Source: a bacterium UBA1790
GTDB taxonomy: Bacteria > Bacteroidota > Bacteroidia > Bacteroidales > Muribaculaceae
DNA length: 10,737 bases
Assembly (NCBI GenBank): GCA_002314465.1
Contig: DCGA01000007.1
Span: forward strand, 1-10,737
Reading direction: 5' to 3'
A program made the translations under genes and the position numbers. The notes beneath the pieces were generated by a model that had not been told where the DNA came from, did no database searches, and was given only the letters and a program-made list of their open reading frames with translations. Shown here in pieces: positions 3,542 to 10,737 of this stretch; position 1 is the first letter of the stretch, and each line of letters begins with the position of its first letter.

Positions 3542-5782
3542 ATGAAGAAATCGTTTACTATGTTTGCTGCGACAATGATGTGTGCAGCGACATTCCAGGC
3601 AAGTGCCTTCCAGGGCACAGGTACGGCAGACGACCCCTACCAGGTATCAACACCAGCCGATTTTGCCGAGATGGCAGCCGGTGTTACAACCGACGGTTAT
3701 GCCGACAAGTACTTTGAAATGACACGCGACATCGACTTTGCTGGCGCTACATTCACCCAGATTGGTACTTACAGCAGTTCAGCCCCGATAGCTTTCATGG
3801 GCAACTTCAATGGCAACCACCACAAGATTTCAAACCTCACAGTCAATGGCAACGGTGTGTTCGGTATGCTGGCAAACAACACCGTAAAGGACATTGAGTT
3901 TGATGCAACTTGTTCACTCTCGGCAAGTTCCGACAATGCCGGTATGCTTGCCGGTTACATCCAGTACAGCACAGTGAGCGGCATCAAGAGCCAGGCATCG
4001 GTAACCTCTACCAATGCATATGTAGGCGGCATCGTTGGCCGCACAACTGCCAATGACCAGCAGTACACAGCCATTCGCAACTGTGAGATTTCGGGCGCAA
4101 CCGTTAGCGGTACCAAGTATGTAGGCGGTATCGTGGGTAATGCCAATGCTGCAGCCACCGAGAAATATGTTGCAATGGAAGTTACCGGTTGTAAGGTAGC
4201 CAGCGATGTTGTGGTATCGTGCAGCGACGCAAGCAGCGGCGGTTGCGGCGGTGTTGTAGGTATGGGGCGCTATGCGGCCGTTAAGGACTGCGAGTTTGCC
4301 GGCACAGTAAACGGCACAGTATATGTAGGCGGCATGGTAGGTTACAACCTGCTGGGCGCATGCTACTGCTCAAACGACGTTGTTACCAACACTGCTGTCA
4401 TCAATGCAACATCTACATCGATTACATCAGCTTCTGTAGGCGGAATCATGGGTTGCGCTAACGGCGACGCTAACTACGGCACTATCATTGAGAATTGCAA
4501 GGTTTATGGCAAAATCGCTGCCACTAAGAACGTTGCCGGTGGTATAATGGGTAGCTACACACTGGGTAAGAACCTCCAGATTACCAACTGCGAATTTGCA
4601 GGAGAGGTCACCGCTAACCAGACTGCAGGCGGTATATCGGGTACAATATGCGCAGGCACAAGCATCGAGAACTGCGTGAGCAACGGTAAGGTTTCGGTAA
4701 ACACCTACGGCGCCGGAGGTATCAACGGCACCACCTCGGGAACTCCCACAGCAACTACCCCCATCACCATCAAGGGCTGCGTTAACCACTCAACCGTTAC
4801 TGCAGGCACATACCAGGCAGCAGGTATCAGCGCATCAACAACCAGCTACACTACTATCGAAGGCTGCTATAACACCGGTACCATCACCGCCAACCAGACC
4901 AACACAGTTGGTAGCGGCCATGCTGCAGGTATCGTTGCCAATGCATCAATCCTGAGCTCATACAACAACATCAGCGTTATCGACTGCTTCAACGTGGGTA
5001 CCATCACCAGCAGTGCAAAGTATGCAGCAGGTATCGTGGCCTACAGCGCCGGCGCCATCAGCATCACCGGTTGCTACAATCGTGGCGAGGTAACCTCTGC
5101 TACCTATGCAGGCGGCATCGCGGCACAACTCACATCGGCATCTTCGACAGTTGACTACTGCTACAATGCAGGTCCCGTGGCTGCTACAACACCCGACTAT
5201 GCAGGCAACATTACGGGCGGTACCGGTGCTGCTGTGGTAAGCAACAGCGTTTACCTTGACATCCTCCCCGCATGCACCAAGGACAACGCCAACAATGCAG
5301 TCTCAGTAGAAGGCCTCACCAATGCAAATATGGGCGACGACTATGAATCGGTAGGTAGTTACTGCTTCCCCGTTATCTACTCGATGACCGAAGAAGATGC
5401 AGCCCTTGCCAACGCAGCCGCTGTGGTTCCCGCCGGTGAAGGCGAGACCCTCGACAACATCACCACCAACTCAATCCACGTTGGTACATGTGATGGCGAG
5501 GTGAGCTGGAGCAGCAACACCGGTGACTTCGTTGTAGAAGGCAATGAGGGCCGCTTCACAAGCAGTGTTGACGGCGAGGTTATCCTCACCGCAACTTGCG
5601 GCGACTTCTCACGCGACTGGAAGGTTGTTGCACACATCAACGATCCCGTAACTGCAATCACCGACATCAAGACCGATGCAGCACACACCATCAAGGGCCG
5701 CTTCAACATGGCAGGCCAGCGTGTGGACGAGAACGCTAAGGGTCTCATCATCGTCGATGGCAAGAAGACAATGGTGAAGTAA
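3542..5782 (+). CDS. Secreted GLUG-repeat beta-helix protein with Ig-like domain and C-terminal tail
   Basis: The 746-residue protein starts with a signal peptide (MKKSFTMFAATMMCAATFQASA, cut near 22). A GTGTADDPYQVSTPADF segment follows (25-41), the usual entry strand of GLUG proteins. Residues about 60-570 are repeats of the form I-x-x-C-x-x-x-G-x-V ... GGI-x-G, expected to stack as a right-handed beta helix. Nearly every rung has one Cys: 181, 217, 250, 319, 350, 378, 413, 442, 482, 511, 540. Residues 629-700 resemble an atypical bacterial Ig-like domain. Residues 705-746 (FNMAGQRV ... GLIIVDGKK) are the tail often found on exported Bacteroidales proteins. No catalytic motif is seen; adhesion or glycan/protein binding is likely, but that is inference. 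It lies 29 nt after the peptidase and shares its promoter; the start follows AAAAAGAG and a terminator follows the stop. Confidence 0.85.
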   Translation: MKKSFTMFAATMMCAATFQASAFQGTGTADDPYQVSTPADFAEMAAGVTTDGYADKYFEMTRDIDFAGATFTQIGTYSSSAPIAFMGNFNGNHHKISNLTVNGNGVFGMLANNTVKDIEFDATCSLSASSDNAGMLAGYIQYSTVSGIKSQASVTSTNAYVGGIVGRTTANDQQYTAIRNCEISGATVSGTKYVGGIVGNANAAATEKYVAMEVTGCKVASDVVVSCSDASSGGCGGVVGMGRYAAVKDCEFAGTVNGTVYVGGMVGYNLLGACYCSNDVVTNTAVINATSTSITSASVGGIMGCANGDANYGTIIENCKVYGKIAATKNVAGGIMGSYTLGKNLQITNCEFAGEVTANQTAGGISGTICAGTSIENCVSNGKVSVNTYGAGGINGTTSGTPTATTPITIKGCVNHSTVTAGTYQAAGISASTTSYTTIEGCYNTGTITANQTNTVGSGHAAGIVANASILSSYNNISVIDCFNVGTITSSAKYAAGIVAYSAGAISITGCYNRGEVTSATYAGGIAAQLTSASSTVDYCYNAGPVAATTPDYAGNITGGTGAAVVSNSVYLDILPACTKDNANNAVSVEGLTNANMGDDYESVGSYCFPVIYSMTEEDAALANAAAVVPAGEGETLDNITTNSIHVGTCDGEVSWSSNTGDFVVEGNEGRFTSSVDGEVILTATCGDFSRDWKVVAHINDPVTAITDIKTDAAHTIKGRFNMAGQRVDENAKGLIIVDGKKTMVK

Positions 5783-5911: not shown

Positions 5912-5920
5912 ATATGATTG

Positions 5921-5962
5921 AGCGATAGACGGGACTCGAACCCGCGACCCTCGGCTTGGGAA
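5921..5962 (-). pseudogene. 3' half of a tRNA-Gly-like gene; candidate attachment site
   Basis: Read on the minus strand, the 42 nt run from the anticodon loop (TTCCCAA) through the stem arm GCCGA, variable loop, T arm GCGGG-TTCGAGT-CCCGT and acceptor strand CTATCGC with discriminator T. The 5' half (acceptor strand, D arm, anticodon 5' arm) is missing and replaced by AT-rich DNA beginning at 5963. A break in the anticodon loop with the 3' half kept is what a tyrosine-recombinase integration at a tRNA gene leaves at its far end. It matches the intact tRNA-Gly at 10512-10583 at 34 of 43 aligned positions. However, its acceptor strand would not pair with that tRNA's 5' end, so its true partner may be outside the window. 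Confidence 0.75.
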
Positions 5963-6046
5963 ATTATTTTTTCTAACGCTATTGTCTTGATTGTTAATAA
6001 TTTATCTTATCTCATATTTTTATGTACATGGATGTGTACATGGGTC

Positions 6047-6451
6047 TTACTTTTTCTGTTTTGCTAATTCAACTCGCAGATTTTCAATCGTTTGCCTCAA
6101 TTCTGCAATGGTCTTGTCCCTTTCGTCTATCTGAGAAAGCAGTCGCTCATTCATATATATAATGTGGTCGACAAGACTCTGGTCTACGCTGCTTGAACTT
6201 GATTTGCCTCCTGACTTGCCCTTCATTTCGCCCCTCTCTTTGTAGGCTACATTTTTGTCCTCGAATATATATGATGACAAATCAGCAATGCCATAAACTT
6301 CAGACAAAAGCTTTATAAATGCATCGGGAGTTGCGTTCCGACCATTCTCCATCGCAGAAATAAAACCTTGGGGATAGTTGGCTATCCTCGCTATTTCCTT
6401 CTGCGTAATTTTTCGCTCTTTTCTAAATCGCTTTAAGTCAAATCGTTGCAT
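6047..6451 (-). CDS. XRE-family (Cro/C1-type HTH) repressor-like protein
   Basis: This 134-residue protein has an N-terminal lambda-repressor-type helix-turn-helix: residues 4-56 include KRFRKERKITQKEIARIA, then YPQGFISAMENGRNATPDAF. A polar Lys/Gly/Ser linker spans about 73-88. The C-terminal part (95-134, DHIIYMNERLLSQIDERDKT onward) has a heptad pattern that predicts a coiled coil for oligomerisation. It has no LexA-type peptidase domain, so induction by RecA-driven self-cleavage is not expected. It is divergent from the Cro-like gene across a 230-bp control region, and its own promoter carries a palindrome, so it likely represses the replication operon and itself. The ATG at 6449-6451 sits directly before the HTH. 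Role inferred from family and position. Confidence 0.85.
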   Translation of the reverse strand: MQRFDLKRFRKERKITQKEIARIANYPQGFISAMENGRNATPDAFIKLLSEVYGIADLSSYIFEDKNVAYKERGEMKGKSGGKSSSSSVDQSLVDHIIYMNERLLSQIDERDKTIAELRQTIENLRVELAKQKK

Positions 6452-6500
6452 AAATTCTCACTCAAAATATCAGAAATATTTATTAAAATATCTCCAATAA

Positions 6501-6534
6501 TTTGTTATACTTTGGAAACTTTTCACTAACTTTG
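6501..6534 (+). promoter_or_regulatory. Possible rightward promoter of the replication operon
   Basis: TAACTTTG (6527-6534) fits the -7 box. The nearest TTG (6502-6504) lies 22 nt upstream, two longer than the other promoters here, so it is a weaker call. The start near 6541 leaves a leader of about 140 nt before the Cro-like gene, with a TTGCAC-GTGCAA hairpin at 6566-6584. It faces the repressor promoter, so the two transcripts would overlap over roughly 6541-6599. Confidence 0.45.
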
Positions 6535-6605
6535 CACTGTCTCTTTTGCTAAAAATTAGTGGCTATTGCACTTATTTTGTGCAACATAAGTCCCTTTTCC
6601 ATTGG

Positions 6606-6636
6606 CAAAGGTAGTAAATATTTTGGTAATTACCAA
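6606..6636 (-). promoter_or_regulatory. Promoter of the repressor gene, overlapped by a 14-bp palindrome
   Basis: On the minus strand TTG (6634-6636), 20 nt, TACCTTTG (6606-6613), a full consensus match. The perfect palindrome TTGGTAATTACCAA (6623-6636) includes the -33 TTG, so a dimer bound there would block this promoter. Transcription would start near 6599, with a leader of about 148 nt. Confidence 0.7.
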
Positions 6637-6681
6637 TATTTTGTTGATATATTTACGAATATTTTTAAAATAATTTGACTT

Positions 6682-6897
6682 ATGAAACAATTATCACTTC
6701 GAGAACGCTTCATTGAAGCAAAGATGAAAATCTCACCTGCTCAAGAGTTTATCAATGAAATTAGCAAGATTAGCCACAGGAAAGACGCAACCGTCAGACG
6801 TTGGCTTTATGGTGTTTCAGAACCTGACGAGTTTATCAAGGCTACTCTCGCCGAACATTATGGAACCAGCATCGAGGTCTTATTCCCTAAAGCATAA
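6682..6897 (+). CDS. Small Cro-like DNA-binding protein
   Basis: The 71 residues show a helical DNA-binding layout: an N-terminal helix (LSLRERFIEAKM), a segment ATVRRWLYGVSEPDEF (36-51) that looks like a recognition helix and turn, and a closing HYGTSIEVLFPK (59-70) like that of small phage Cro-like proteins. It is the first rightward gene after the control region, opposite the XRE repressor, which is the usual Cro position. It probably counters the repressor or tunes early expression; that is inference from size and place. The start lies in an A+T-rich tract with no strong Shine-Dalgarno site; no other in-frame ATG gives a better N terminus. The next gene follows after 4 nt. Confidence 0.7.
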   Translation: MKQLSLRERFIEAKMKISPAQEFINEISKISHRKDATVRRWLYGVSEPDEFIKATLAEHYGTSIEVLFPKA

Positions 6898-6901
6898 TGA
6901 T

Positions 6902-7099
6902 ATGGTAACAGCTGAACCGAACGCAAAATTCAACGGACGCTATTCCTTGGAGCAGACTTGCGAACTGCTCGGGATTAGCAGGCGATCGCTTTATCGTTAC
7001 ATTGAACGAGGAAGCATTATATATGGTATAAGGGTTTCCACTGGCAAGAAATTCATTCTTGGCAATGAAATCCTGCGCTTCTGGAAAAACCACATGTGA
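6902..7099 (+). CDS. Small excisionase-like helix-turn-helix protein
   Basis: The 65 residues form a winged-helix/MerR-type HTH: YSLEQTCELLGISRRSLYRY (14-33) is the helix-turn-helix. IERGSIIYGIRVSTGKKFIL follows as the wing, then a last helix EILRFWKNH. This is the AlpA/Xis/HTH_17 type used by excisionases and small activators of mobile elements. I chose the ATG at 6902, 4 nt after the previous stop, because the domain begins shortly after; an upstream in-frame ATG would overlap the Cro-like gene heavily. Its last codon ATG and stop TGA are joined to the next start region (ATGTGAGTATGG), suggesting coupled translation. In the element it may aid excision or activate the replication genes; which one is not decided by sequence. 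Confidence 0.75.
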   Translation: MVTAEPNAKFNGRYSLEQTCELLGISRRSLYRYIERGSIIYGIRVSTGKKFILGNEILRFWKNHM

Positions 7100-7101
7100 G
7101 T

Positions 7102-7860
7102 ATGGCTGGCTGGATTGCGATTAGTCGTGACATTCGTGACCATTGGATTTGGAGCGACGCCAGGCACGCCCAGTGGTGGCTTGACCTTCTGCTTGCAGCA
7201 GAATGGGACGCCAAGGTTGTGTTCTATGGAAACACCGAAATCCATTTGGCACGAGGACAGATTCTTTCTTCTATCCGAGGACTTGCAGGAAGATGGAAAG
7301 CCAGCCCGCAGACTGTGATGAATTTTCTACAGGTCCTCGAGTGTAATGAAATGATTACGCGAGACACGGAAAATAGAATTACGGTCATCACTATCACTAA
7401 CTATGAGAAGTATCAACCGAAGGTGTCTGGGGACGAACGCAAAATGGAACGTCCATCCGAACACCATCCTGAACATATTATAAATAATAAAATAAATAAT
7501 ATAAAAATAAACTCTCCTAATACACGCGAGGATGAAGAAAAATTCTTTGAGGAAATGAAATCTTCTGATTTGTTTGGAGAGAGAATATGCATGGTTCTTA
7601 AATGCGACAAGGCAATGTTCCTATCGCTGCTTGAAGATTTTGAAGCCGAAATTATGGCGGTGGAGCAAATTCATAAAAGCATCCAGGACTGCAAGAAGCA
7701 TTTCCAAAACTGGGCGAAAATAGCAATTCAAAAAAAACAAAACCAAAATGGAAACGGAACAAGACAAAAACCAGGGGCAACCGCCAGCGATAAACATGCA
7801 AGTCGTCGAGGAACTGAGCCGTCAGATTTCAAAAAGAAGGACTATAGCAAAGGCTTTTAG
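7102..7860 (+). CDS. Phage-type replication initiator (DnaD/O-like, N-terminal winged helix)
   Basis: The 252-residue protein opens with MAGWIAISRDIRDHWIWSDA and WWLDLLLAAEW. It continues through RGQILSSIRGLAGRWKASPQ (51-70) and a strand ending ITITNYEKYQ (96-105), the winged-helix domain of phage replisome organisers. A polar linker follows (106-145, with ERKMERPSEHHPEHIINNK). A helical part (146-210) ends in FQNWAKIAIQ, and the tail is basic and Gly/Asn-rich. It should bind the origin and recruit the DnaC-like loader encoded next. The start is ATG 7102; GTG 7096, overlapping the previous stop, would add two residues. Its last 113 nt overlap the next gene in another frame. The linker DNA itself carries the candidate origin. 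Family and role are well supported by sequence pattern and neighbour; exact domain number not assigned. Confidence 0.8.
   Translation: MAGWIAISRDIRDHWIWSDARHAQWWLDLLLAAEWDAKVVFYGNTEIHLARGQILSSIRGLAGRWKASPQTVMNFLQVLECNEMITRDTENRITVITITNYEKYQPKVSGDERKMERPSEHHPEHIINNKINNIKINSPNTREDEEKFFEEMKSSDLFGERICMVLKCDKAMFLSLLEDFEAEIMAVEQIHKSIQDCKKHFQNWAKIAIQKKQNQNGNGTRQKPGATASDKHASRRGTEPSDFKKKDYSKGF
7435..7511 (+). other. Candidate replication origin inside the initiator gene
   Basis: GAAC occurs at 7435, 7447, 7459 and 7471, that is four units exactly 12 bp apart; the middle two are close copies (GAACGTCCATCC, GAACACCATCCT). Immediately after the last unit comes 37 nt of pure A and T (7475-7511). Iterons beside an A+T-rich unwinding tract, placed in the linker of the initiator gene, is the arrangement of the lambda origin in gene O. 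The 12-bp period also equals four codons (E112, E116, E120, E124), so a protein-level repeat could be the cause instead. Confidence 0.45.
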
Positions 7861-8467
7861 AATAAACCTTCCCGTCGAAGAAGCATACATGTGGCTGACC
7901 TCTTGCTACAAGTCGGAGGTGGAGGCGCGAGGACTTGAATACATCAATGACGCTAATACAAGGCAGGCGATTTTTCAACTCGCCAAAGCTCTTGTGGCGC
8001 CTAACCCAAAGTGCGGCATCATGCTGTGCGGAACTTGCGGCAACGGAAAGACCACTCTCCTCTATGCCTTCCGCACGATGATTAACATCCTCAACTCGTC
8101 GGGACATTTCAAATTCCTTGACTTCAAGGTGGGCATGAGAATCTATGATGCCAAGGAACTTGTGCTGATGTTAAGCCGACTCGAGGAATGGCGCAATGTG
8201 TGTGGCTTCGACATGATTGCGATTGATGACCTCGGCAAGGAACCTGCCGAAGTTATGGACTACGGCAATATACGCAGCCCATTGGTAGATCTGCTCGAGC
8301 AGCGCTACCAAAGGCAGAAGTTCACGATGATCACATCAAACCTTGCCCCTGATGACATCAAGGCTAAGTACGGTGAGCGTATCGCCGACCGATTTCGTGA
8401 GATGTTTGGAATTATAGTTTTTGTTTTTGACTCGTATCGTGGCAAGTCGGAAAGGAGGAACCCATGA
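7748..8467 (+). CDS. DnaC-like helicase loader (AAA+ ATPase)
   Basis: This 239-residue P-loop ATPase has Walker A GTCGNGKTT (95-103), Walker B MIAIDDLG (156-163), a sensor-1 strand TMITSNL (193-199) and a GERIADRF motif (209-216) holding the arginine finger. This is the DnaC/DnaI/IstB pattern; length and the phage-type initiator next door favour a helicase loader over an IstB transposition ATPase. It would place host DnaB at the element origin. The start at 7748 overlaps the initiator gene by 113 nt; the internal ATG at 7796 (M17) still overlaps by 65 nt, and MQVVEELSRQISKRR is a credible N terminus. Neither has a clear Shine-Dalgarno site. The stop overlaps the next ATG (ATGA). Confidence 0.85.
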   Translation: METEQDKNQGQPPAINMQVVEELSRQISKRRTIAKAFRINLPVEEAYMWLTSCYKSEVEARGLEYINDANTRQAIFQLAKALVAPNPKCGIMLCGTCGNGKTTLLYAFRTMINILNSSGHFKFLDFKVGMRIYDAKELVLMLSRLEEWRNVCGFDMIAIDDLGKEPAEVMDYGNIRSPLVDLLEQRYQRQKFTMITSNLAPDDIKAKYGERIADRFREMFGIIVFVFDSYRGKSERRNP

Positions 8468-8949
8468 CGGGAATGTGCTTTTACCTTACACTCGACGACT
8501 ATCTCGCTGAGTGGTTCATCAACGAACATGGCGGGAACAACCCTGTGCGCTTGAAACGCGGCTCCCCGGAGTGTGACATCGTGGAGCTTTACATGGCTGT
8601 GCCGCCTCGAGAAGACTACATCCCCGAGATGGGTGAACTGTTCCAAGTGCCGGTGCTTTTCCCTCACACGAGAGGAAAAGACCCGCAGTATTACCACTAT
8701 CTGCCTCCGAAAGCCTACGCTGCACTCGTGGCCTGCATACGCACTCGCTTTGATGTGCAGATGTGGGAGGAACTGCACCGCTTCGGCTATATCGGGAAGC
8801 AGAAGTCGGAACTTATCTATGCGTGGATGGAGAAACATGGCATCGAGGACACCGAACGGAACTGGTGCGCCATTGCGAAAAGATACCAGCGGAAACGCAA
8901 CACTTTTCAACGCAATGTAAGACGCGCAAGGAAAAATGCAAAAAAATAG
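8464..8949 (+). CDS. Small basic protein of the replication operon, function unknown
   Basis: The 161 residues open with FYLTLDDYLAEWFINEHGG (6-24), followed by an acidic/Pro-rich middle and a helical second half (PPKAYAALVACIRTRFDVQM). The C terminus is strongly basic (AKRYQRKRNTFQRNVRRARK), suggesting nucleic-acid or DNA-bound partner contact. It resembles conserved hypothetical proteins found beside DnaC-like loaders in Bacteroidales prophages, but I cannot name a family. The start is firm: ATG overlaps the loader stop as ATGA, and AGGAGG (8453-8458) stands 5 nt before it, an unusually strong ribosome-binding site for this phylum. Translation is thus likely coupled and boosted. It ends the tightly packed replication run; an A-rich tract and a new -7 box follow. 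Confidence 0.75.
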   Translation: MTGMCFYLTLDDYLAEWFINEHGGNNPVRLKRGSPECDIVELYMAVPPREDYIPEMGELFQVPVLFPHTRGKDPQYYHYLPPKAYAALVACIRTRFDVQMWEELHRFGYIGKQKSELIYAWMEKHGIEDTERNWCAIAKRYQRKRNTFQRNVRRARKNAKK

Positions 8950-8956
8950 TCTCAAT

Positions 8957-8964
8957 TAACTTTG
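8957..8964 (+). promoter_or_regulatory. Possible -7 box before the 144-residue gene
   Basis: TAACTTTG matches TAnnTTTG, but no TTG lies 19-21 nt upstream, so this is a partial match. The start near 8971 would give a leader of about 47 nt that includes a run of seven C (8992-8998). Confidence 0.35.
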
Positions 8965-9017
8965 ATTTCAGAGGGCATTTGTCCTCAAGTACCCCCCCAA
9001 TACACAAATACCCATTT

Positions 9018-9452
9018 ATGAAGAACAAAAACCAATCCCTGCCAGGCATCAAGTTCATCGGTTTTGTCTTTGCGGAAAAACTTTCGCCTAATGTCATGCT
9101 GAAAGGAATATGTGGAGCACCCGTCGGAGTTTATGCTGATGTAACGCCAGTGGCGTTCGTCGGTACGCCCGAGTGCACGATCGGCGATGAATATGATAGT
9201 CACGGAAGGCTGCAGGCCGTGGAACTGAAGTTTGCCACCAATGAGTTCGTACCCACAACCACACCTGTGGCGTTCGTGGTCACTGATGTGAACGGGCAGT
9301 CTTATCTCATCGGAGCGCAGGAACCTCCACACCCAGTCGTGAAACTCACTGTAAACTTCGGCTCGCCAAAGGGCGAATCGTCGGTGAATTTGTATGAAGT
9401 CAAATACGTTGCGATAAAAGCACTGTTGCAATGCTCGGTTGTCGCTGAATAA
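9018..9452 (+). CDS. Unrecognised 144-residue protein
   Basis: I cannot assign this protein to a family with confidence. It reads MKNKNQSLPGIKFIGFVFAE, then two related segments: VTPVAFVGTPECTIGDEYDS (43-62), which leads on to HGRLQAVELKF, and TTPVAFVVTDVNGQSYLIGA further on (near 81-100). The shared TPVAFV and the strong alternation of hydrophobic residues point to a mostly beta fold with an internal duplication. No signal peptide or membrane segment is seen, so it is probably cytoplasmic. The charge is near neutral. The start ATG is the first in frame after the previous gene; upstream is a short leader with a C7 run. It may have its own promoter at 8957. As the first gene after the replication run it could be cargo or a phage-derived accessory protein. 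Confidence 0.65.
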   Translation: MKNKNQSLPGIKFIGFVFAEKLSPNVMLKGICGAPVGVYADVTPVAFVGTPECTIGDEYDSHGRLQAVELKFATNEFVPTTTPVAFVVTDVNGQSYLIGAQEPPHPVVKLTVNFGSPKGESSVNLYEVKYVAIKALLQCSVVAE

Positions 9453-9760
9453 GTTTGTCGTTCGGGTGCAACGTGGGCGTTATAGGTTGTGCCGTTACCG
9501 TCCGCACTGCGTGATGTTTTTGCCTATGCTTGATTTTATCAGCAACACTTTTGTTTGCTGAGCAGGCAACATTTTCCGATGCAAAGTTATAGTCCCGTTC
9601 ACTGAGCAAGGACAGGCATGTTTACCTCATTTTCTCCAGCCCTGCGGGTAGTAAAATGCTGTAAATCCTTGCACGAGCGTTCCCTTGCGGACTATTGGTT
9701 AAGCACCGTAAAAGTTTACTCAGCGTAAACAAGTGTTTAACTAATAAAAATCATACAGCA
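9453..9760. other. 308-nt gap with hairpins and inverted repeats, no convincing gene
   Basis: On the plus strand GGTGCAAC (9465-9472) pairs with GTTGTGCC (9486-9493) using two G-U pairs. CAGCAA...TTGCTG (9540-9560) makes a second hairpin with an inner AC/GT around TTTT. GCAAGGA (9606-9612) and TCCTTGC (9666-9672) are complementary. GTTTAC-TCAGC-GTAAAC lies just before the next gene, preceded by GTAAAAGTTTAC, giving several GTAAA/TTTAC half sites that look operator-like. No U-run makes any of these a clear terminator. A leftward frame here gives no protein-like sequence. It may hold a small RNA and the control region of the 120-residue gene. Confidence 0.4.
9582..9609 (-). promoter_or_regulatory. 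Possible leftward promoter in the gap
   Basis: On the minus strand TAACTTTG (9582-9589) matches the -7 box; TTG (9607-9609) stands only 17 nt upstream, shorter than the 20 nt of the other promoters. It would fire toward the end of the 144-residue gene and could make an antisense or small RNA. Confidence 0.3.
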
Positions 9761-10123
9761 ATGGCAAAAAACATTCTTTCAGACGAACTGGTTTACAGCA
9801 CCAATTATGACGTGGCGGTGCACTGGCTGAACAACAGCTTTATCATGTGTAACAACTTACCCGAGATTGACGGCTCTATCTACGATAACGCACGATTTGA
9901 CATCTGCAATCCCGTCAACGAAGTTTTCCAGTGGTTCATCACTTCGTGCAGTGAATCGGATGTGGAGTTCCTCGAGGAGCACTTTGCAGGACTCTGCTTC
10001 ACATACAGCGGATTGCTCAACGTGTGGGTACTGTGTGTTACTCATTGGGGCACATCATGGGATTACGTCCACTGCTTCACGGACTTGGAATGTGCCGAAC
10101 GTGAACTCGGCAAGAGCAAATAA
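9761..10123 (+). CDS. Unrecognised acidic 120-residue protein
   Basis: No family is recognised. The 120 residues (MAKNILSDELVYSTNYDVAV...) contain 18 Asp/Glu against 5 Lys/Arg, a net charge near -13, spread along the chain, plus several Trp and Cys (for example VFQWFITSCSESDVEFLEEH and WVLCVTHWGTSWDY). There is no signal peptide. Small, very acidic proteins encoded on mobile elements include DNA mimics such as anti-restriction proteins; this is a possibility by charge only, without motif support. The ATG at 9761 was preferred to an earlier in-frame ATG because the upstream residues (Lys/Asn-rich) look non-coding and inverted repeats end just before it. A second small acidic gene follows 52 nt later, probably co-transcribed. 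Confidence 0.7.
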   Translation: MAKNILSDELVYSTNYDVAVHWLNNSFIMCNNLPEIDGSIYDNARFDICNPVNEVFQWFITSCSESDVEFLEEHFAGLCFTYSGLLNVWVLCVTHWGTSWDYVHCFTDLECAERELGKSK

Positions 10124-10142
10124 CATCAGCATTAACTTCGGA

Positions 10143-10156
10143 GGGGAGCAATCCCC
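10143..10156 (+). promoter_or_regulatory. GNRA-capped hairpin before the 92-residue gene
   Basis: GGGGA-GCAA-TCCCC forms a 5-bp stem closed by a GCAA tetraloop, a very stable RNA motif, ending 19 nt before the ATG at 10176. No U-run follows, so it is not a terminator. It may act on translation or mRNA stability. Confidence 0.45.
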
Positions 10157-10175
10157 ACCTTTAATTCCTTTCAGT

Positions 10176-10454
10176 ATGACTAACAAAACTTTTGAAATTC
10201 TTGATGCCCTTAATCGCGAGGGATTTGACAATTCACAATTGGGTTTCGGCAGGAACATTGACTCCACAGCTGCCTATCTGGGCTCTGACGAGGACATCTG
10301 CATCAACTATATGTTCGCTTACGTCTACATCAAGCACGATGAAGCTCAGTACCGCATGAATCATCACATTCCCGACTTAATTCTTCATTGGTCGAACAAG
10401 CACCCGGTTATTCCATGCCAGGAAGAACTGATTTACATCTACTATCTGGACTAA
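10176..10454 (+). CDS. Unrecognised small acidic protein (92 residues)
   Basis: The protein starts MTNKTFEILDALNREGFDNS and ends QEELIYIYYLD. It has 14 Asp/Glu against 6 Lys/Arg, several Tyr and His, no signal peptide and no motif I can name. The start is chosen at ATG 10176: upstream in the same frame the residues do not look like protein, and the GGGGA hairpin lies in between. It is the last gene before the double-hairpin terminator and the tRNA-Gly gene, so it closes the element segment. With the 120-residue gene it makes a pair of small acidic products of unknown function; whether they act together is open. Confidence 0.65.
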   Translation: MTNKTFEILDALNREGFDNSQLGFGRNIDSTAAYLGSDEDICINYMFAYVYIKHDEAQYRMNHHIPDLILHWSNKHPVIPCQEELIYIYYLD

Positions 10455-10455
10455 C

Positions 10456-10506
10456 TTGTTGAAAATTCTTCAACAACAAAGCCGGCTCGCAATGAGTCGG
10501 CTTTTT
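10456..10506 (+). terminator. Double-hairpin terminator at the right end of the element segment
   Basis: The first hairpin TTGTTGAA-AATTC-TTCAACAA (10456-10476) has 8 bp. The second, AAAGCCGGCTC-GCAAT-GAGTCGGCTTT (10478-10504), has 11 bp with one G-U, and the U-run 10502-10506 finishes it. On the minus strand the first hairpin may help end the tRNA-Gly transcript. Confidence 0.85.
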
Positions 10507-10511
10507 CTATG

Positions 10512-10583
10512 AGCGGGTAACGGGGGTCGAACCCGCGACTTTCGCCTTGGGAAGGCGACGCTCTACCACTGAGCTACACCCGC
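10512..10583 (-). tRNA. tRNA-Gly, anticodon CCC
   Basis: A full 72-nt cloverleaf folds on the minus strand. The acceptor is GCGGGTG/TACCCGC (one G-U) with discriminator T. The D arm is GCTC/GAGC. The anticodon stem TCGCC/GGCGA has loop TTCCCAA, anticodon CCC (reads GGG). The T arm is GCGGG/CCCGT with loop TTCGACC. No CCA is encoded. It shares its T-stem sequence, with the same terminal G-U pair, and its anticodon loop with the tRNA fragment at 5921-5962, but acceptor, variable and anticodon stem bases differ. It lies 5 nt beyond the terminator of the element segment, in the same orientation as the fragment. Confidence 0.95.
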
Positions 10584-10603
10584 ACACTCCCATAATAGCC
10601 ATT

Positions 10604-10634
10604 TCATTTTACTTGCTTTCCTATATAGTGTCAA
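10604..10634 (-). promoter_or_regulatory. Weak promoter candidate for tRNA-Gly
   Basis: On the minus strand TTG of TTGACA (10632-10634), 20 nt, then TAAAATGA (10604-10611). Spacing is exact, but the -7 box departs from TAnnTTTG. The start would fall about 14 nt before the tRNA. Confidence 0.35.
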
Positions 10635-10640
10635 GTTAAC

Positions 10641-10670
10641 AAAAAACCCCACACGTCAATAACGGTGGGG
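10641..10670 (-). terminator. Terminator of a leftward gene mostly or wholly outside the window
   Basis: CCCCAC (10647-10652) pairs with GTGGGG (10665-10670), with an inner CGT/ACG. Read leftward it is followed by six T (complement of 10641-10646). It must end a gene entering from the right edge. Confidence 0.75.
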
Positions 10671-10737
10671 CTTTCAGCCATTTCGATGTTTAAGAAATTT
10701 ACGATTCGGAAACAATTGAAAATAATATGTTTTTATT

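Follow-up and report, generated by a model that had tools for sequence, protein, structure and literature searches.

The initiator gene and its linker

The window, by which the whole stretch of DNA analysed is meant (10,737 nucleotides of contig DCGA01000007.1 from the Muribaculaceae bacterium UBA1790), carries on its forward strand a gene for a DnaD-like initiator, or replisome organizer, at 7096..7860. The gene starts at GTG 7096 or at ATG 7102, and the database copy of its product (P0001) begins at ATG. The product matches the DnaD-like replisome organizers of phrog_2514 (E 2e-31, residues 3-171), phrog_186 (E 3.3e-17) and the product of SPP1 gene 38 (E 5e-7; 36.6% over residues 1-107). The lambda O family is not its best match: the 'O-like' family phrog_345 ranks sixth of eight families, with an E-value of 8e-6 as against 2e-31 for phrog_2514. 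On the same strand, the ORF listed at 7748..8467 encodes a DnaC-like helicase loader (phrog_50, E 8.7e-27; phrog_3277, E 2.8e-19), and the two frames overlap by 113 nt (7748-7860). Within this overlap, the C-terminal end of the initiator is identical to that of P0002, a protein that is only 57% identical as a whole; such a difference suggests a dual-coding constraint or recombination.

The initiator consists of an N-terminal winged-helix DNA-binding domain (7105..7419, residues 4-108), a linker that is predicted to be disordered (7420..7521, residues 109-142, pLDDT under 50) and a C-terminal DUF7833 domain (7549..7719, residues 152-208; Pfam PF25200, E 1.5e-7, above the cut-off), all on the forward strand. 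The structure prediction is confident for the winged helix in 4-108, gives disorder in 109-142 and places helices afterwards; its pTM is only 0.42, and the arrangement of the domains is not to be trusted. A sequence search of the PDB with the initiator gave no match at E-values up to 1, and Foldseek gave none at E < 0.001. The best 50 Foldseek matches per list are winged-helix regulators and similar DNA-binding proteins; no replication initiator was noticed among them, which excludes nothing.

The linker contains the whole of the candidate origin. Four GAAC boxes lie on the forward strand at 7435..7438 (with the AAC core at 7436), 7447..7450, 7459..7462 and 7471..7474, as read directly from the sequence, and a pure A/T tract of 37 nt, a candidate DNA unwinding element, follows directly 3' of the fourth box at 7475..7511. 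The next longest A/T run in the window is 19 nt. A preliminary description of this DNA had placed boxes and tract at exactly these positions, in the linker of a phage-type initiator next to a DnaC-like loader, and had read the codons under the four units as E-R, E-R, E-H and E-H; all of this is borne out. Its 12-bp repeat unit is not: the four units have just 4 of 12 bases in common, and what is conserved is a three-base box, AAC, or [AG]AC across the family. The protein comparison with P0002 and P0003, the closest proteins to the initiator (57 and 53% identity), reveals that the E-R/E-H register is lost in them and that the Asn/Ile/Lys-rich end is kept.

The array is rare by several measures. 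In 60 Markov-simulated windows, arrays in which some 4-mer recurs four times at a constant period between 8 and 30 came up at a rate of 0.033 per window; when the order of codons in the linker is shuffled, any such array appears in a fraction of 0.0008 of 5000 shuffles, and for the part of the linker before the A/T tract the fraction is 0.0004. Moreover, apart from the fourfold AAC, neither strand of the window has any chain of three or more AAC, or of four or more [AG]AC, spaced at 11 or 12 nt; by chance, 0.22 AAC chains of at least three and 0.01 of at least four would be expected per strand. The best lag-12 segment that the automatic test finds in the window falls in the A/T tract and not in the GAAC array. 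A motif pooled from the 56 other arrays (a diffuse PWM) did not rank the window's array, and its best four-unit matches in the window lie in flanking genes, at 3664 and 1823. This miss fits boxes that drift, yet it is no evidence for drift.

The preliminary description had itself warned that 12 bp is four codons, so that the repeat might stem from the protein. The DNA pattern would then be a by-product of a peptide repeat of four residues, acidic and basic, and of the disordered linker rich in Asn, Ile and Lys that comes after it. Synonymous resampling of the coding sequence bears on this explanation directly. Under the codon usage of the gene itself, the element and the host flank, the four GAAC at 12 nt turn up in 0.045, 0.056 and 0.023 of 20000 resamplings, respectively, that is, in 2-6% of cases; the window's array thus exceeds what the protein demands at synonymous sites only weakly. 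In contrast, the 37-nt A/T tract is reached in 0.003, 0.0007 and 0 of 20000 resamplings, depending on the codon usage assumed, and is more than codon demand. For the window alone, the warning therefore stands for the repeat (0.023-0.056) and falls for the tract (at most 0.003). The predicted disorder of the linker also speaks against a purely protein-based origin of the pattern: since boxes and tract lie inside a stretch modelled as disordered, the protein there should tolerate many sequences.

Box spacing across the initiator family

Homologues of the initiator were taken from viral contigs (12 loci), one Massilibacteroides contig, phages, plasmids and further stretches. A separate scan of viral contigs with P0002 gave 12 loci at 25-32% identity, which stand outside the array statistics. 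The genomes scanned comprised 397 of the taxonomic family, 79 of which had an initiator match, and 393 of the order, with a match in 27. ORFs were excluded if they were shorter than 140 aa, held X or had an N-domain match ending before profile position 95, the N-domain profile having been built from matches of the window's own domain. The 117 ORFs formed 91 clusters at 70% identity, the window's cluster included; L109, which has a stop inside its match, was kept among the 91 with no array scored, and L126-L167 stand outside the array statistics. Periodicity was scored over 165 nt of coding sequence following the DNA-binding domain, whose self-similarity at each lag from 7 to 30 was compared with that obtained when the codon order is shuffled.

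By this test, the linkers of 68 of the 91 clusters are periodic at P<=0.05, as against 3 of 91 for N-domain DNA and 2 of 84 for the 3' end of the gene. The best lags of the 68 are 11 (24 linkers), 12 (26), 22 (4), 24 (3) and others (11); the linker of SPP1 gene 38 gives lag 11 in the same test. Boxes tell the same story at finer grain. Among the 90 clusters other than the window's, 19 have a chain of at least four [AG]AC at 11 bp and 13 have one at 12 bp; no other spacing between 6 and 30 yields such chains in more than 2 clusters. Shuffling predicts no more than 0.3, and N-domain DNA, taken as the control, gives none at any spacing. Under the looser criterion of three AAC, 21 clusters have chains at 11 bp and 20 at 12 bp, with side peaks at 22 (11 clusters), 15 (7), 24 (7), 18 (6) and 7 (5) against an expectation of about 0.3-1.1, and none of the 90 has them at spacings 10 and 13. 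Of 56 arrays, 31 conserve an [AG]AC triplet, compared with 17.8 expected from column shuffling. Thus, a box spacing of 11 or 12 bp recurs at the linker in much of the initiator family. Among individual members, eight [AG]AC boxes are chained at 12 nt in L044, and near-perfect 12-bp units extend over most of the tested linker in L100.

The arrays of period 11 are informative because 11 is not a multiple of three: successive units lie in different codon registers, and the peptide does not recur with each unit. Nevertheless, 27 of 28 arrays of period 11 (or 22) exceed synonymous resampling at P<=0.05, which a repeat imposed by the protein would leave unexplained. As these arrays are out of codon register and almost all lie above synonymous expectation, it is the DNA, not the peptide, that is conserved in the 11-bp members. 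Of the arrays of period 12 (or 24), 19 of 29, a set that includes the window's own A/T-tract segment, are above synonymous resampling at the same threshold, and the other 10 lie within synonymous expectation, as the protein-based explanation would have it. The downstream side of the array holds the A/T-richest 36 nt in 48 of 57 cases and the upstream side in 5, with 4 ties. An A/T run beyond synonymous expectation is found in just 16 of 91 linkers; the A/T richness of the family is therefore partly protein-coded. The proposal of an origin stands up to the comparison of homologous initiator genes, which had been suggested as a check.

Close kin of the window lead in the same direction. Three AAC at exactly 12 nt are present in 6 of 10 close kin inspected (L018, L019, L021, L022, L024 and L028), which represent four clusters, as L018, L019 and L021 belong to one; they are absent from L025, L026, L027 and L033. 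The codons under the boxes specify E, K or Q, followed by R, H or Q. The residue thus shifts among E, K and Q, and with it the charge, while the DNA box stays at 12 nt, contrary to what a conserved acidic/basic peptide repeat would produce. Taken with the out-of-register arrays, which answer the warning about the protein for the family, and with the A/T tract, this makes it quite unlikely that the pattern is a product of the protein only.

The period follows the tree of the N-domain. Over 57 rows, nine changes between periods 11 and 12 are required, and the period-11 label takes 16 changes against a shuffled mean of 24.3, on a tree of 105 columns in which many forks are open and in which the window was labelled period 12 by hand, its own automatic best lag of 12 falling in the A/T tract. 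The window falls in a well-supported set of 39 rows, the smallest that contains it. Among its 38 companions there, the automatic period is 12 in 19, 11 in 2 and unassigned in 17; at least three [AG]AC are chained at 12 nt in 16 and at 11 nt in 2. The preliminary description had counted it as evidence against an origin if homologues retained the domains without the repeat, and this is partly so: a chain of three [AG]AC at 12 nt is absent from 22 of the 38 clusters. Fifteen of them also lack an automatic period of 12, two of these using 11. Other repeats are found in some members of the clade that have no chain, for example at lag 22 in L041 and at lags 24 and 12 in L066 and L069.

The element and its proposed origin

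The initiator belongs to an element whose left end lies near 5962/5963. At 5919-5962 there is the 3' half of a tRNA-Gly(CCC), the anticodon loop being the place of the break. Most of 101 genomes of the genus gave a match to this stretch in a DNA search, and in all five genomes fetched (L157-L161) the matched stretch holds an intact tRNA-Gly(CCC). Five further stretches with homologous initiators (L163-L167) have the same tRNA-Gly half 1.1-1.2 kb before the initiator and no intact tRNA. The broken half, the intact copies elsewhere and the same half before homologous initiators together place the left end. One of these stretches, L165, has two copies of the half, at 490-524 and 3729-3773, about 3.2 kb apart, and could hold two tandem elements at one tRNA site.

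The right end was not found within the window. The contig extends to 11019, and a stretch of N (an assembly gap or masked sequence) starts just past the last base of the window (from position 238 of L162). A complete tRNA-Gly(CCC) at 10511-10583 was considered as the right end, but its acceptor stem does not agree with the one in the left fragment, and it was therefore rejected; it may be a replacement carried by the element or an unrelated host gene. None of the nine ORFs tested from the left end to the last base of the window (5963-10737) was recognised as an integrase gene, the ORF at 8464-8946 giving only a sub-threshold Phage_integrase match (E 0.038). It is possible that the element is a satellite that uses an integrase in trans, or that the integrase gene lies beyond the contig. 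The element is phage-like and probably belongs to Bacteroidales, as judged from the Massilibacteroides contig with a homologous initiator and from the related loaders of Bacteroides phages. A small HTH_17/excisionase-like gene at 6902-7099 lies just before the initiator. Further upstream, an A+T-rich intergenic region at 6452-6681 separates a divergent HTH repressor gene (6047-6451) from the operon that starts at 6682; the region likely contains operators and promoters. The sign of the GC skew switches near 6700, where gene orientation switches too, and the skew is therefore uninformative.

The candidate at 7435-7511 has to be weighed against this intergenic region. The boxes might be sites at which the initiator regulates its own gene or arrests forks, with the origin elsewhere, for example at 6452-6681, where the DNA is A+T-rich and a 21-nt repeat occurs twice. 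A precedent for such a role is SPP1 gp38, which also binds a second site, oriR, thought to block forks (available text of PMC6316719). However, the window has no second chain of boxes at 11 or 12 bp, the in-gene site of SPP1 is the origin oriL, and the origin of phage 80alpha has likewise been proposed to lie within the gene (available texts of PMC6316719 and PMC5499656). Such a role for the boxes, with the origin elsewhere, is very unlikely on these grounds.

An explanation compatible with an in-gene origin is that the origin once worked and now lies in a decayed element. The want of a recognised integrase among the ORFs tested would agree with decay, as would the boxes of the window, which are more degenerate than those in many kin. 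On the other hand, the initiator, the loader, the repressor and the excisionase-like protein all have intact open frames and recognisable domains, and decay is, on balance, unlikely.

Most probably, the element has a replication origin of its own at 7435-7511, within the initiator gene, and this origin is SPP1-like rather than strictly lambda-like. The preliminary description had also taken the site for the element's origin, and this proposal is strengthened by the presence of 11/12-bp arrays in the linkers of most of the 91 clusters and not in the control parts. The locus combines three features of initiator-embedded iteron origins of the SPP1/lambda type, namely direct repeats of constant spacing, an adjoining A+T-rich stretch and a loader gene beside the initiator. 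It also shares with the DnaD-like initiators of phrog_2514 the similarity of the N-domain and the 11/12-bp spacing of linker boxes, the latter being a regularity that comes from the present survey and is unpublished.

The possible mechanism would be as follows. The winged-helix N-domains of several initiator molecules would occupy the four AAC boxes, one per 12 bp, a distance slightly over one helical turn, and the initiators would build a nucleoprotein array. Strain in the array would open the adjacent 37-bp A/T tract, and the C-terminal part of the initiator, together with the DnaC-like loader, would place the host DnaB helicase on the melted strands. With 10.5 bp per turn in B-form DNA, each box would be turned relative to the one before it by about 17 degrees at a spacing of 11 bp and by about 51 degrees at 12 bp. 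The bound domains would then wind around the DNA in a shallow spiral, which is the reason proposed here for the two spacings.

A wider generalisation may be drawn, one that seems to us evenly poised between holding and failing. DnaD-like initiators, from those of Firmicutes phages to those of probable Bacteroidales elements, would carry the origin in their own linker as [AG]AC boxes at 11 or 12 bp and at neither 10 nor 13, and each period would be passed on along with the DNA-binding domain. The sequence of the boxes would drift while their spacing stays fixed, and it would be the array geometry of the initiators, rather than a fixed iteron, that is under constraint. If this rule is true, origins would be predictable from sequence alone across a large, mostly uncultured phage-like family, and the initiator linker would be explained as constrained by DNA and not by protein. 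The rule also raises the question of why the spacing is 11 and 12 bp and not 10 and 13. No 11/12-bp rule for these initiators was recognised in the literature; most subscription papers, including the primary work on SPP1 oriL, lay outside the search, and its absence is not claimed. The layout common to many relatives, that is, short boxes every 11 or 12 bases followed by an A+T-rich stretch, could help to locate origins in uncultured phages.

Comparison with known in-gene origins

Lambda, the system to which the locus had originally been likened, has iterons of about 18-20 bp. The boxes of the window are short and 12 bp apart, and the O protein is only weakly similar to the window's initiator (phrog_345, E 8e-6). 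The likeness lies in the arrangement of four repeats and an AT-rich tract within the initiator gene: according to the available text of PMC7466680, lambda has four iterons and the AT-rich tract in the middle of the O gene, and the O and P genes lie together. In the same text, the minimal fragment competent for unwinding consists of two iterons and the adjacent tract.

Bacteroides phages Versailles and BS-TP4, both of which are outside the 91 clusters, resemble the window in that an annotated initiator gene overlaps that of a DnaC-like loader, and their loaders are 35.9 and 32.3% identical to that of the window, respectively. The initiator of BS-TP4 is distantly similar (E 2.5e-6), and that of Versailles was not among the matches. 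Staphylococcus phage 80alpha, likewise outside the 91 clusters, is likened to the window by gene layout. Its ORF20 and ORF21 encode an initiator and a DnaC-like loader, and repeats followed by an A/T-rich stretch lie within the initiator gene; the repeat period is 15/30, in contrast to that of the window. A putative rep_origin is annotated inside ORF20. ORF20 could not be complemented in trans, which its authors take to suggest an origin inside the gene (available text of PMC5499656).

Judged by sequence, the nearest characterised relative is SPP1 gp38 (G38P) with oriL rather than lambda O. The available text of PMC6316719 describes gp38 as binding repeats in oriL, inside gene 38, and as starting replication there with the loader and the helicase; oriL consists of direct repeats and an A+T-rich unwinding element. 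The window shares with this system a related N-domain and, as that text describes for SPP1, direct repeats with an A+T-rich stretch inside the initiator gene. The differences are that the SPP1 array has a period of 11 and that of the window 12, that SPP1 has a second origin, oriR, and that SPP1 encodes its own DnaB-type helicase, gp40, along with the loader gp39, whereas the window has a DnaC-like loader and no recognised helicase gene. Lambda and SPP1 have known in-gene origins and 80alpha a proposed one, and because of SPP1 and 80alpha the origin put forward for the window is not categorically new.
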